This document shows, in pieces, positions 10,574 through 13,496 of a stretch of DNA of 17,616 bases. The translations under genes and the position numbers were made by a program. Below the pieces are notes generated by a model. That model was not told the DNA's origin and did no database searches. It saw only the letters and a program-made list of their open reading frames with translations. The stretch covers positions 1 through 17,616 of the forward strand of contig JAUXGM010000031.1 in NCBI GenBank assembly GCA_030622125.1, in the 5' to 3' direction. Source of the stretch: a bacterium (GTDB taxonomy: Bacteria > AUK180). Numbering within the stretch: the first letter of the stretch is position 1; each line of letters starts with the position of its first letter.

Positions 10574-10600
10574 AGGGGTGGTCGTTCGTGAACCGTCCCT
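10574..10600 (+). repeat. Hairpin with G-T pairs
   Basis: AGGGGTGGT at the left can pair over nine positions with ACCGTCCCT at the right (seven Watson-Crick, two G-T pairs), around a loop of nine bases. It lies about 45 bases after the sucD-like stop and may be a transcript 3'-end structure or a dispersed repeat. There is no T-run after it. Confidence 0.45.
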
Positions 10601-10661
10601 GAAGCCTGTTCCGCACTTGATACGGGGTCATTCTGATGGATTTATTTGCCGATTATTCAAA

Positions 10662-10677
10662 CCCCGATTTATCGGGG
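10662..10677 (+). repeat. CCCCGAT/ATCGGGG palindrome
   Basis: A 7-bp perfect inverted repeat separated by TT. The ATCGGG element recalls the repeat cores after ppdK, but the flanks GTCATT and AATCCAT are absent, so it is at best a relative. Confidence 0.5.
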
Positions 10678-10834
10678 AGAATCTATCTTTTGATCTTCAA
10701 AATATGGGATTATTACGGGAACGCTCTCAAATCATAAGGTATCAGGACGCACTTTTCACTTTGTTCAAAGTAACGTCCCTAATGTGGGACTTCGTCCCTG
10801 ACTTCGTCACCTTTGAACCTTATTAACAAATTTC

Positions 10835-10863: not shown

Positions 10864-10965
10864 ATAAATGATGAAAATGATATCTGAAATAATACAAATT
10901 TTGTCTCATTTTGGAGAAAGCACTACAATATTTTTAATAGGATATGTGTGAAAAGGAAGCCATTT

Positions 10966-11811
10966 ATGACTGAAAATATAGTAACTTACGAGCCCGACAA
11001 TTCACTGAAAAAAGGGTATTTTTCTATCTTTGGTGAGATATTTAATGAACTCAAGAAAAACCGATGGCTCACTTATCAATTATTTAAAAGAGACTTTTTG
11101 GCAATGTATAAACAATCGTTCATCGGTGTTTTATGGGCTTTTATCATACCCCTTATTAGCGTTGGAACATTTATTATCTTAAACCGTTCCGGTATATTTA
11201 ATATTGGCAGTATCAATGTTCCCTATCCAATATATGCAGTACTCGGTATGGCATTCTGGCAGTTATTTTCAACCGGTTTAATTGCAAGTTCAAATTCATT
11301 GGTAAAAGCCGGTCCAATGATCATCAAAATAAATTTTTCTAAAAAATCATTGGTCATAGCGTCCTGTGGGCAGTCTATTATATCATTTGCCGTCCAATTT
11401 ATTTTAGTATTGATACTATTTATCTGTTACGGAATTGCACCGAGCATCTTGATTTTATTGGTTCCGATAATTATCATTCCGATTATGTTACTTACACTTG
11501 GATTTGGGCTCATATTATCATTATTTAACGGTATATTTAGGGATATTGGCAATATTCTATCAGTTTTAATTACATTTTTGATGTTTCTTACACCTGTTTT
11601 GTATGCAAGACCTACATCAGGGATATTAGCTTTTATTACAAGGTATAATCCACTATATTATCTGGTTTCAGTACCAAGAGAACTTATATTGATGGGAGGA
11701 ATTTCAGAATGGAAAGGTTTTTTAGTTGCAAGTATTATATCGGTTATTGTTTTTATGGTATGTTTGGTTGTATTTCATTTGACGGAAACAAGGGTCGCAG
11801 AGCGAATTTAA
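10966..11811 (+). CDS. Polysaccharide ABC exporter, permease (Wzm-like)
   Basis: Inner-membrane permease of the ABC-2 family that exports lipid-linked O-antigen or other surface polysaccharide, paired with the ATPase encoded at 12306. From ATG 10966 it has 281 residues. A cytoplasmic N-terminus with LTYQLFKRDFLAMYKQSFIG (35-54) is the hallmark of this subfamily. Hydrophobic segments are at about 55-73, 87-108, 128-155, 157-188, 197-213 and 252-271, giving the expected six spans. ATG 10966 is preferred because AAGGA (10953-10957) stands eight bases before it; an in-frame GTG at 10948 would add six residues and cannot be excluded. Normally the ATPase gene follows directly. Here 494 bases holding another gene separate them. 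Confidence 0.92.
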   Translation: MTENIVTYEPDNSLKKGYFSIFGEIFNELKKNRWLTYQLFKRDFLAMYKQSFIGVLWAFIIPLISVGTFIILNRSGIFNIGSINVPYPIYAVLGMAFWQLFSTGLIASSNSLVKAGPMIIKINFSKKSLVIASCGQSIISFAVQFILVLILFICYGIAPSILILLVPIIIIPIMLLTLGFGLILSLFNGIFRDIGNILSVLITFLMFLTPVLYARPTSGILAFITRYNPLYYLVSVPRELILMGGISEWKGFLVASIISVIVFMVCLVVFHLTETRVAERI

Positions 11812-11835: not shown

Positions 11836-11860
11836 CCGCAGAAACGCAGAGATCGCAAAG
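11836..11860 (+). repeat. Left inverted repeat flanking the GxxExxY gene
   Basis: A 25-base sequence running from CCGCAGA to TCGCAAAG. Its reverse complement recurs at 12270-12294 with 23 of 25 positions identical (the two differences are A/G changes). It begins 24 bases after the permease stop. No repeat of this type is seen elsewhere in the window. Confidence 0.92.
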
Positions 11861-11885
11861 AAGAAACATTTATGTAGGATAAAAT

Positions 11886-12266
11886 ATGATTAAAGAAAAT
11901 GAATTATCAGAAAAAATAATTGGTGCAGCAATTGAAGTACACAGGGCATTGGGACCTGGATTACTGGAATCTGCCTATGAGGAATGTCTTTGTAAAGAAT
12001 TGGGTTTAAAAAAGATTTCTTTTGAAAGACAAAAATCTCTGCCAATAAAATATAAAGGAGTTGACTTAGATTGTGGTTGCCGACTCGATTTAGGAGTTGA
12101 AAACCTTGTAATTGTAGAATTGAAATCCATCACCAACTTGCTTCCAATTCACAGAGCACAATTATTAACATATTTGAAATTAACCCATTTAAAATTAGGA
12201 TTACTTATAAATTTTAATGTCCCTGTATTAACAAAAGGGATTAAAAGAGTGGTAAATAAATTATGA
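11886..12266 (+). CDS. GxxExxY protein, PD-(D/E)XK nuclease-like
   Basis: A 126-residue member of the GxxExxY family, which is related to PD-(D/E)XK nucleases and has no settled biological role. The naming motif is G25-x-x-E28-x-x-Y31 (GLLESAY). The nuclease-like core is D68 in CRLDLG, then VELKS with E78 and K80, followed by the conserved helix HRAQLLTYLK (89-98, Q92). All proposed catalytic residues are present, so nuclease chemistry is possible but unproven. TAGGAT at 11875-11880 lies five bases before the ATG. The gene is enclosed by 25-base inverted repeats and splits the permease-ATPase pair of a polysaccharide exporter, to which it has no obvious functional link. It is best read as inserted cargo. 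Confidence 0.9.
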   Translation: MIKENELSEKIIGAAIEVHRALGPGLLESAYEECLCKELGLKKISFERQKSLPIKYKGVDLDCGCRLDLGVENLVIVELKSITNLLPIHRAQLLTYLKLTHLKLGLLINFNVPVLTKGIKRVVNKL

Positions 12267-12269
12267 GAA

Positions 12270-12294
12270 CTTTGCGACCTCTGCGTCTCTGCGG
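12270..12294 (-). repeat. Right inverted repeat flanking the GxxExxY gene
   Basis: Reads CTTTGCGA to TCTGCGG on the + strand, the reverse complement of the left repeat with two differences. It begins three bases after the GxxExxY stop and ends 11 bases before the next ATG. Its last G's form part of the next gene's ribosome site. Confidence 0.92.
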
Positions 12295-12305: not shown

Positions 12306-13496
12306 ATGGTTAAAGAAATCGCAATAAAAGTAGAGAACGCTTCAAAAAAATACTGCAAATCACTAAAAAGATCTATGTATTATGGAATAAATGATATTGG
12401 AAGAAATATGTTTGGATTGAGTTCTCATTCCGGCAAATTAAGGAAGAATGAGTTCTGGGCATTGGATGATATTTCATTTGAAGTTAAAAGGGGAGAGACA
12501 TTAGGTATTATTGGACCGAATGGTGCCGGTAAAACTACATTACTTAAACTTTTAAATGGTATTTTCTGGCCGGACAGAGGTAAAATTACAGTTAAGGGTC
12601 GAGTTGGTGCACTTATTGCCGTAGGCGCAGGCTTTCACCCTTTGCTTACAGGCAGAGAAAATGTATATATCAATGCTGCAATATTGGGAATGACAAAAAA
12701 AGAAGTGGATGAGAAATTTGATGATATAATAGAATTTGCAGGTATTGGTGATTTTTTGGATACACCTGTGAAATTTTATTCATCGGGAATGTTCGTCCGA
12801 TTGGGGTTTGCCGTAGCAGTGCATTGCGAACCTGATATTTTGCTTGTGGACGAGGTGCTTGCGGTGGGAGATGAAGGCTTTCAAAATAAGTGTTTTAATA
12901 AAATCGGTGAATTAAAAAAAAATGGTACAACGGTTATATTAGTATCTCACAATATGCATATAATCTCGACATTTACAGAAAAATCTGTTTTTTTGAATGG
13001 TGGTAAGGCTAATTATTTCAACAGTGTTGCAGAGGGTATTAAAGAATATAATAAATTATTTATCAAGAAAAGGGATTTGGAAATAGAGAAGATATGCAGC
13101 GGCAATAATAAAATCAAGTTTACCAATATAAAAATAAATAAAAGAATACTTCATCCTGGAGATTCTTTTTCATTATCCATGGAATATAGCTCAGCGGTTG
13201 ATTATAATGAAATAGATATAGACACTGTTATAATAAGTAATAATGAACCATCTATTTATTTTCAAGCTACGAATAAAGCTTTTAATAAAAAGATCAATTT
13301 AAAAAAAGGTAAGCATTCTATGAAAATAGATATAGAAAATATCCGGCTTCATAATTCAATGGCAAAAATAGTTATTGCAATTTATTCAAAAAATCGTAGT
13401 GGCTATTTATTTTGGTGGAGAATTCCGGTAGAATTTAAAACAATTGATTATTCTACGGGAAAGAATTTTTACAATGTTCAATATGAAGTAAAATAG
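12306..13496 (+). CDS. Polysaccharide ABC exporter, ATPase (Wzt-like)
   Basis: Cytoplasmic ATP-binding subunit driving the Wzm-like permease at 10966. The 396 residues hold an ABC domain (about 1-250) with Walker A GPNGAGKT at 70-77, signature YSSGM at 158-162, Walker B ILLVDE at 178-183 and switch H215. A C-terminal domain (about 265-396) is rich in beta-type segments, as in Wzt proteins whose C-terminal domain recognises the modified end of the glycan to be exported. The N-terminal half has the extended region before WALDDISFEVKRGE typical of O-antigen and teichoic-acid exporters. Such a C-terminal domain suggests a chain-terminating modification. The nearby methyltransferases are candidates to make it, which is inference. 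Confidence 0.92.
   Translation: MVKEIAIKVENASKKYCKSLKRSMYYGINDIGRNMFGLSSHSGKLRKNEFWALDDISFEVKRGETLGIIGPNGAGKTTLLKLLNGIFWPDRGKITVKGRVGALIAVGAGFHPLLTGRENVYINAAILGMTKKEVDEKFDDIIEFAGIGDFLDTPVKFYSSGMFVRLGFAVAVHCEPDILLVDEVLAVGDEGFQNKCFNKIGELKKNGTTVILVSHNMHIISTFTEKSVFLNGGKANYFNSVAEGIKEYNKLFIKKRDLEIEKICSGNNKIKFTNIKINKRILHPGDSFSLSMEYSSAVDYNEIDIDTVIISNNEPSIYFQATNKAFNKKINLKKGKHSMKIDIENIRLHNSMAKIVIAIYSKNRSGYLFWWRIPVEFKTIDYSTGKNFYNVQYEVK

Follow-up and report, generated by a model that had tools for sequence, protein, structure and literature searches.

A small gene of the GxxExxY family, lying between the two genes of an ABC exporter in a 17,616-nucleotide stretch of bacterial DNA (the window), is enclosed by inverted arms built from short tandem units, or iterons, and comparison with other genomes indicates that gene and arms together very probably form a mobile unit running from arm to arm. 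The genome comparisons show that such arms are a general feature of GxxExxY loci, that arms and gene have diverged together, and that both dispersed copies of the unit and sites without it exist.

The window unit and its predicted nuclease

The left arm (positions 11836-11860, + strand) reads CCGCAGAAACGCAGAGATCGCAAAG and consists of the units CCGCAGA, CGCAGAG, and CGCAAAG, separated by AA and AT. The right arm (12270-12294, - strand) is its inverted copy and reads CCGCAGAGACGCAGAGGTCGCAAAG on the reverse strand, where TCTCA is followed by the units CCGCAGAG, CGCAGAG, and CGCAAAG, separated by A and GT. Compared in inverted orientation, the two arms are identical at 23 of 25 positions. The only open reading frame between them is the GxxExxY gene (11886-12266, + strand), which encodes a 126-amino-acid predicted PD-(D/E)XK nuclease of the Cas4/RecB-like type, and there is no transposase gene inside the repeats. 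Outside the element, both on the + strand, lie an ABC-2 permease gene upstream (Wzm-like, 10948-11811) and an ABC ATPase gene downstream (Wzt-like, 12306-13496), with 24 bases between the end of the permease reading frame and the left arm and 11 bases between the right arm and the ATPase start. The initial annotation had described this arrangement from the window itself, a GxxExxY gene between 25-base inverted repeats, at these short distances from the exporter genes and with no transposase in the module, and the coordinates bear it out. The unit lies in what is likely an operon. Its 25-nt repeat is more than a simple inverted repeat, because three C-R-C-N-R-A-G units follow one another in each arm, 8-9 nt apart, and the outer extension of the left arm, TTCTA, matches the family consensus TTYAC. 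The 16-nt arm core occurs in the window at the two arm sites only, against 0.05 expected, and about 24 near-exact cores are found in the window's genome, which carries a single GxxExxY gene. An exact-seed repeat search of the window did not report the arm pair, since the two mismatches break up every possible 9-base seed. Elsewhere in the window, positions 10620-10720 hold a dispersed repeat, with 80-90% matches of 39-70 nt in four loci (L014, L016, L025, and L028), which overlaps a short GTG-start reading frame (10578-10826) that is probably not a gene.

Profile searches place the window protein in the GxxExxY family, with matches to TIGR04256 (E 1.7e-45, 154.1 bits against a cut-off of 35) and PF13366 PDDEXK_3 (E 3.9e-43, 147 bits against 22). 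Its key residues are E28, Y31, D68, E78, K80, and Q92xxxY96. Among 122 family proteins, E28, Y31, D68, and K80 are invariant, position 78 is E or D, and Q92 and Y96 are present in 98%; D68, E78, K80, and Q92 are conserved at 96-100%. The series D..ExK..QxxxY is the residue set of Cas4/RecB nucleases. An AF2 model of the protein (pLDDT 94.4) has the PD-(D/E)XK fold, and its nearest known fold is that of the Cas4 protein SSO0001 (4ic1; Z 9.8, Foldseek E 0.002), so that, as modeled, the protein has the core fold together with the D, (D/E)xK, and Q residues. A profile search of the PDB with the protein returned no sequence relative, and the sole similarity found by PADLOC was a weak one to Cas4 (E 0.02). 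The proposal that the gene encodes a nuclease-like fold with intact D68, E78, and K80 therefore holds at the level of the model and of conservation across the 122 proteins. Across 37 close pairs, the median dN/dS is 0.08. The gene is selected for function; the alignments show a predicted nuclease under purifying selection with its predicted active site intact. The long N-terminal extensions of some GxxExxY reading frames (L033 and L035) look like left-arm repeat DNA read as protein, an indication that starts in this family are often annotated too far upstream.

Iteron arms at GxxExxY loci and their match to the protein

A scan of genome contigs, most of them from metagenome-assembled genomes (MAGs), yielded 80 GxxExxY loci under 14 phylum labels in bacteria and archaea, or 81 with the window. 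Inward-facing arms of the form CRCNRAK with a period of 8-9, scored in + orientation up to 200 nt upstream and in - orientation up to 250 nt downstream, were present at 68 of the 81. With both strands counted, arm matches near the gene numbered 94 and 109, against about 5 and 6 predicted by the distal flanks. The same conclusion follows from a motif-free test, in which upstream DNA was aligned to the reverse complement of downstream DNA at 80 loci that were found by profile in the same genomes and share a few members with the first set: 70 of the 80 lay above the 99th percentile of shuffles, compared with 8% of cross-locus pairs. In a same-contig control, 60 of 75 GxxExxY genes passed this test and 16 of 320 other reading frames did so. 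GxxExxY units thus have terminal inverted repeats in the sense used for insertion sequences, and the repeats that the initial annotation had noted around one gene are found around most of its relatives. What is general is the form and not the CCGCAGA-type sequence proposed there, as the letters are specific to each locus (CACAGAG, CGCAGAG, CGCAAAG, CACGGAG, CACGAAG, CGCCAAG, CACGGAT, CGCGGAT, CACGAAT, CACTAAT, and others). On their outer side, the arms have the consensus TTYACC, and by position -8 the information is down to background. The MAG of a Methanophagales archaeon (L092) also contains a unit with iteron arms, in which the gene has one in-frame stop.

Within a locus, the two arms resemble one another in a particular way. 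At 54 of 65 loci, the left and right arms agree in unit type, whereas 10,000 permutations gave a mean of 12.7 and a maximum of 24. At the 70 loci with clean three-unit arms, the units of left and right arms are 93% identical within a locus and 72% between loci, values that include two columns matching by construction, since the pattern that defines a unit requires C at position 3 and A at position 6. Spacer letters agree at 48% within a locus and 34% between loci, and spacer lengths are equal in 89% of comparisons within a locus versus 43% between loci. Unit sequence and phase are therefore kept and spacer pairing is not; because units and spacing match while spacer letters do not, the pattern is the one expected of protein-binding sites and not of mere base pairing. 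These data bear on the proposal that the arms act mainly as an RNA stem, processed by an enzyme of the RNase III type, in an operon transcript that tolerates the insert, with any spread being rare and incidental. The window element does fold with its arms paired (z -4.7) and lies in a likely operon, and the known intervening sequences (IVS), which combine terminal inverted repeats with a small reading frame, are excised by RNase III (PMC4990558). Selection for pairing, however, would not give units that match at 93% and spacers at 48%, a stem does not need tandem iteration at fixed spacing, and no Rfam family matches. We therefore consider it improbable that the arms are mainly an RNA stem, although by analogy such a role may hold in addition to that of a mobile unit.

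The arms also follow the protein. Between genomes, iteron type tracks protein similarity with a Spearman coefficient of 0.51, and when iteron types were shuffled among paralogues of the same genome, the maximum in 2000 trials was 0.36. As the observed value exceeds these within-genome shuffles, the match does not simply reflect host composition or host repeats. Arms and gene would also diverge together in this way if they were inherited as one unit.

Copies, empty sites, and gene-less hairpins

The clearest case of presence and absence comes from Accumulibacter, in which 28 genomes share all or part of a junction between murC and ddl (gene names as read from the encoded sequence). Only one of them, G045, has a GxxExxY unit at this junction; the flanks are 1 to 145 nt apart in 26 others, and one (G059) is cut by a contig end. 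G045 is nested within a clade of genomes with the empty junction (SH-aLRT 100), and gain of the unit is therefore the simple reading. Viewed by species, this junction (L213-L239) is a spacer hotspot that is bare, holds a GxxExxY unit, or, in several of the genomes, holds gene-less hairpins, which are made of facing iteron arms of at least four iteron types.

Copies in unrelated surroundings provide the second line of evidence. In a Desulfaltia genome (G017), two copies (L142 and L150) are 94% identical over 430 nt with unrelated flanks, and copies on two contigs of a single genome (L087 and L088) are 97% identical with unrelated left flanks. Some genomes are multi-copy, with 19 copies in G010 and 14 in G046. 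Three units from MAGs named Desulfobacterales, Proteobacteria, and Planctomycetes (L046, L050, and L054, respectively) share 82-84% identity over about 462 nt, exactly from arm to arm (YTCACCGC to GCGGTGA), and the DNA outside is unrelated; a binning error could mislabel a MAG, but these sharp ends are independent of the names. To the base, the ends of the unit are approximate, none of the empty sites compared having near-identical flanks. Among 73 loci, no target-site duplication was found: for flank lengths of 3-8 at boundaries of 0-8, matches were not in excess, the exception being two 5-mers at a single boundary. Together, the empty sites and the copies in unrelated flanks strongly support, from comparison of sequences, the earlier suggestion of a mobile single-gene module bounded by inverted repeats. 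Carriage by phages or plasmids was rejected as a route on the counts obtained: GxxExxY was found in none of 50,697 phage records, was confirmed in no viral contig, and occurs in 7 of 72,556 plasmids.

The initial annotation had further suggested that the protein might cut DNA and promote its own spread in the manner of a homing nuclease. In the strict sense, such a protein cuts one target allele, into which repair then copies its gene. A single nuclease-family reading frame, sites with and without it, and the finding of different units at one site in two Geobacteraceae, where the flanking DNA is 85% identical and the unit proteins 67%, all fit such a gene. Against it, recent, near-identical copies lie in unrelated flanks, so there is no one conserved recognition site; the loci share no target outside the arms and their TTYACC ends, there is no target duplication, and homing gives facing inverted arms no role. 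This part of the earlier suggestion is not supported, and a strict homing endonuclease gene is very improbable.

Relatives lacking the gene had been proposed as a check of insertion, and besides the 26 empty Accumulibacter junctions, one occurs at the window's own site. The sister genome G001 keeps the Wzm-Wzt junction, with a permease 91% identical in amino acid sequence and the ATPase, and at this junction (L126, contig 332), the place of the GxxExxY gene is taken by a four-helix-bundle gene (TIGR02436, E 2.8e-30) with tandem repeats of its own on either side, AGTGTTGAGTGTTTAGTGTTGAGT and, inverted, AGTTTTGAGTTTTAAGTATTGAGT. In a test of 39 TIGR02436 genes from 19 genomes, 26 were flanked by significant inverted arms, again of tandem units but of other sequence. 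Two unrelated small genes therefore have this architecture in common and can be found in the same spacer, and it follows that units of this kind need not contain a nuclease. Another genome, G005, was discarded as a candidate empty site, as the homologue of the window's permease there has no ATPase gene after it.

Arms also occur with no gene at all. Accumulibacter genomes contain up to 100 triple CRCAGAG arrays each, with a reversed-pattern control near zero, and most of those read in context are inward-facing hairpins of 73-138 nt, whose fine spacing (9-8-9 or 8-8-11) is also that of the arms around GxxExxY genes of the genus. Five of the 15 Accumulibacter genomes with arrays have no GxxExxY gene. 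The association between gene and repeat within Accumulibacter (Fisher p 0.00025) is not independent of phylogeny, with only four phylogenetically independent pairs, and is not proof of a link. In the window's genome, many of the arm cores stand in mosaics with other iteron types, and several repeat loci (L009, L011, L018, L026, and others) are likewise intergenic mosaics, such as CCGCAGAG arrays beside TTAACCACAGATTAGACGGATTAAACGGAT.

The main rival to a unit mobilized by its own nuclease takes the arms as the mobile thing, moved in trans by a RAYT/Y1 or other enzyme, with the GxxExxY and four-helix-bundle genes as passengers. The four-helix-bundle units are its best support, since two unrelated gene families have one arrangement, and it is also favored by gene-less hairpins being far more numerous than gene-bearing units and by the distribution of Y1_Tnp genes, which are present in 14 of 15 Accumulibacter genomes with arrays versus 4 of 13 without. 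GxxExxY and Y1 presence are inseparable by phylogenetically independent pairs in this group. Yet Y1_Tnp genes are flanked by other repeats (GGGGACAGACCACGGTTT or AAAAGGGGACGCTACCCTTT, as seen in Accumulibacter at the RAYT-like genes of L326, L327, L323, and L335), a CRCRRAG triple lies close to only 1 of 31 Y1_Tnp loci, and G045, which carries the element, yielded no Y1_Tnp gene. Passengers should, moreover, match the repeats of their host, whereas the iteron type goes with the protein over and above the genome. RAYT was thus set aside as the mobilizer for want of linkage and for its different flanking repeats, although the counts correlate, and movement of the arms in trans by some enzyme seems to us unlikely.

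A candidate mechanism and related elements

We favor, with some reserve, the explanation that the window holds one example of a widespread single-gene mobile unit, whose GxxExxY protein recognizes and cuts its own iteron arms to start movement or copying and whose non-autonomous derivatives are the gene-less hairpins. The unit would be about 460 bp long and run from TTYACC through three to four CRCNRAK iterons of period 8-9, the gene, and the inverted iterons to GGTRAA, and it would move in one piece into intergenic spacers without detectable target duplication. The protein would recognize its own arms by unit sequence and spacing and make its cut at the ends of the unit or close to them, where repair or replication would then move or copy the unit. 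Gene-less hairpins of two facing arms would be deletion derivatives served in trans, standing to the GxxExxY gene as REPINs do to RAYT genes. Self-mobilization is a step that we infer, and the chances that mobility is due to the nuclease acting on its own arms appear to us about even. More tentatively, these units may constitute an undescribed self-mobilizing class, in which a lone Cas4-like nuclease replaces the transposase and its specificity co-diverges with the iterons, with the hairpins as miniatures and the four-helix-bundle genes as a sister class.

In its working, the unit is closest to REPIN/RAYT systems and to the IVS, and it fails a defining feature of each. Like RAYT genes (PMC3116915, PMC2817692), it is a single-copy gene between inverted repeats in an intergenic location, the repeat is specific to the gene lineage, and dispersed gene-less hairpins of facing repeats share the repeat of the gene. 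It differs in that the GxxExxY protein is a predicted PD-(D/E)XK nuclease and RAYT an HUH Y1 transposase, in that its arms are three to four direct iterons whereas a REPIN is a short tagged palindrome, and in that the Y1 genes of the same genomes carry other repeats. The IVS of 23S rRNA (Coxiella, Leptospira) are about 430 nt long, with 28-bp terminal inverted repeats around a four-helix-bundle (S23p) reading frame, and are excised by RNase III (PMC4990558); they share with the GxxExxY unit one small reading frame, terminal inverted repeats, a length of 430-460 bp, the lack of a transposase, and horizontal spread, and TIGR02436, the family of their protein, has iteron arms at sites other than rRNA. 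The window unit, in contrast, lies between permease and ATPase genes and not in rRNA, its protein belongs to another family, and its arms consist of iterons with locus-specific letters. It shares terminal inverted repeats, one reading frame, and shortened gene-less derivatives with insertion sequences and MITEs, but the GxxExxY unit has no recognized transposase family and no target-site duplication in the 73 loci. Homing endonuclease genes are likewise lone nuclease genes present or absent at a site, whereas GxxExxY units occupy many unrelated sites with inverted arms and no conserved target. With Cas4/RecB-like nucleases such as SSO0001 (4ic1), the modeled protein shares the fold and the D..ExK..QxxxY residues; it differs in being a single short domain whose N-terminal part is a GxxExxY region, and no CRISPR neighbors were seen among the window's reading frames. 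The element is apparently undescribed so far: in the open-access papers covered by the search, GxxExxY appears in two passing mentions only and the repeat sequences tried are absent, and a prior description in subscription papers or preprints is possible.

GxxExxY is a very common family of "unknown" proteins, and hairpins of CGCAGAG, CACGAAG, or CACGGAT units fill intergenic regions in many phyla. The link between gene and iterons explains both, and it gives each locus its cognate test DNA, so that many protein-iteron pairs would make the recognition rule directly testable. The proposal puts a nuclease in a role so far held by transposases and would have a bearing, too, on the long-standing question of the spread of intervening sequences in 23S rRNA.
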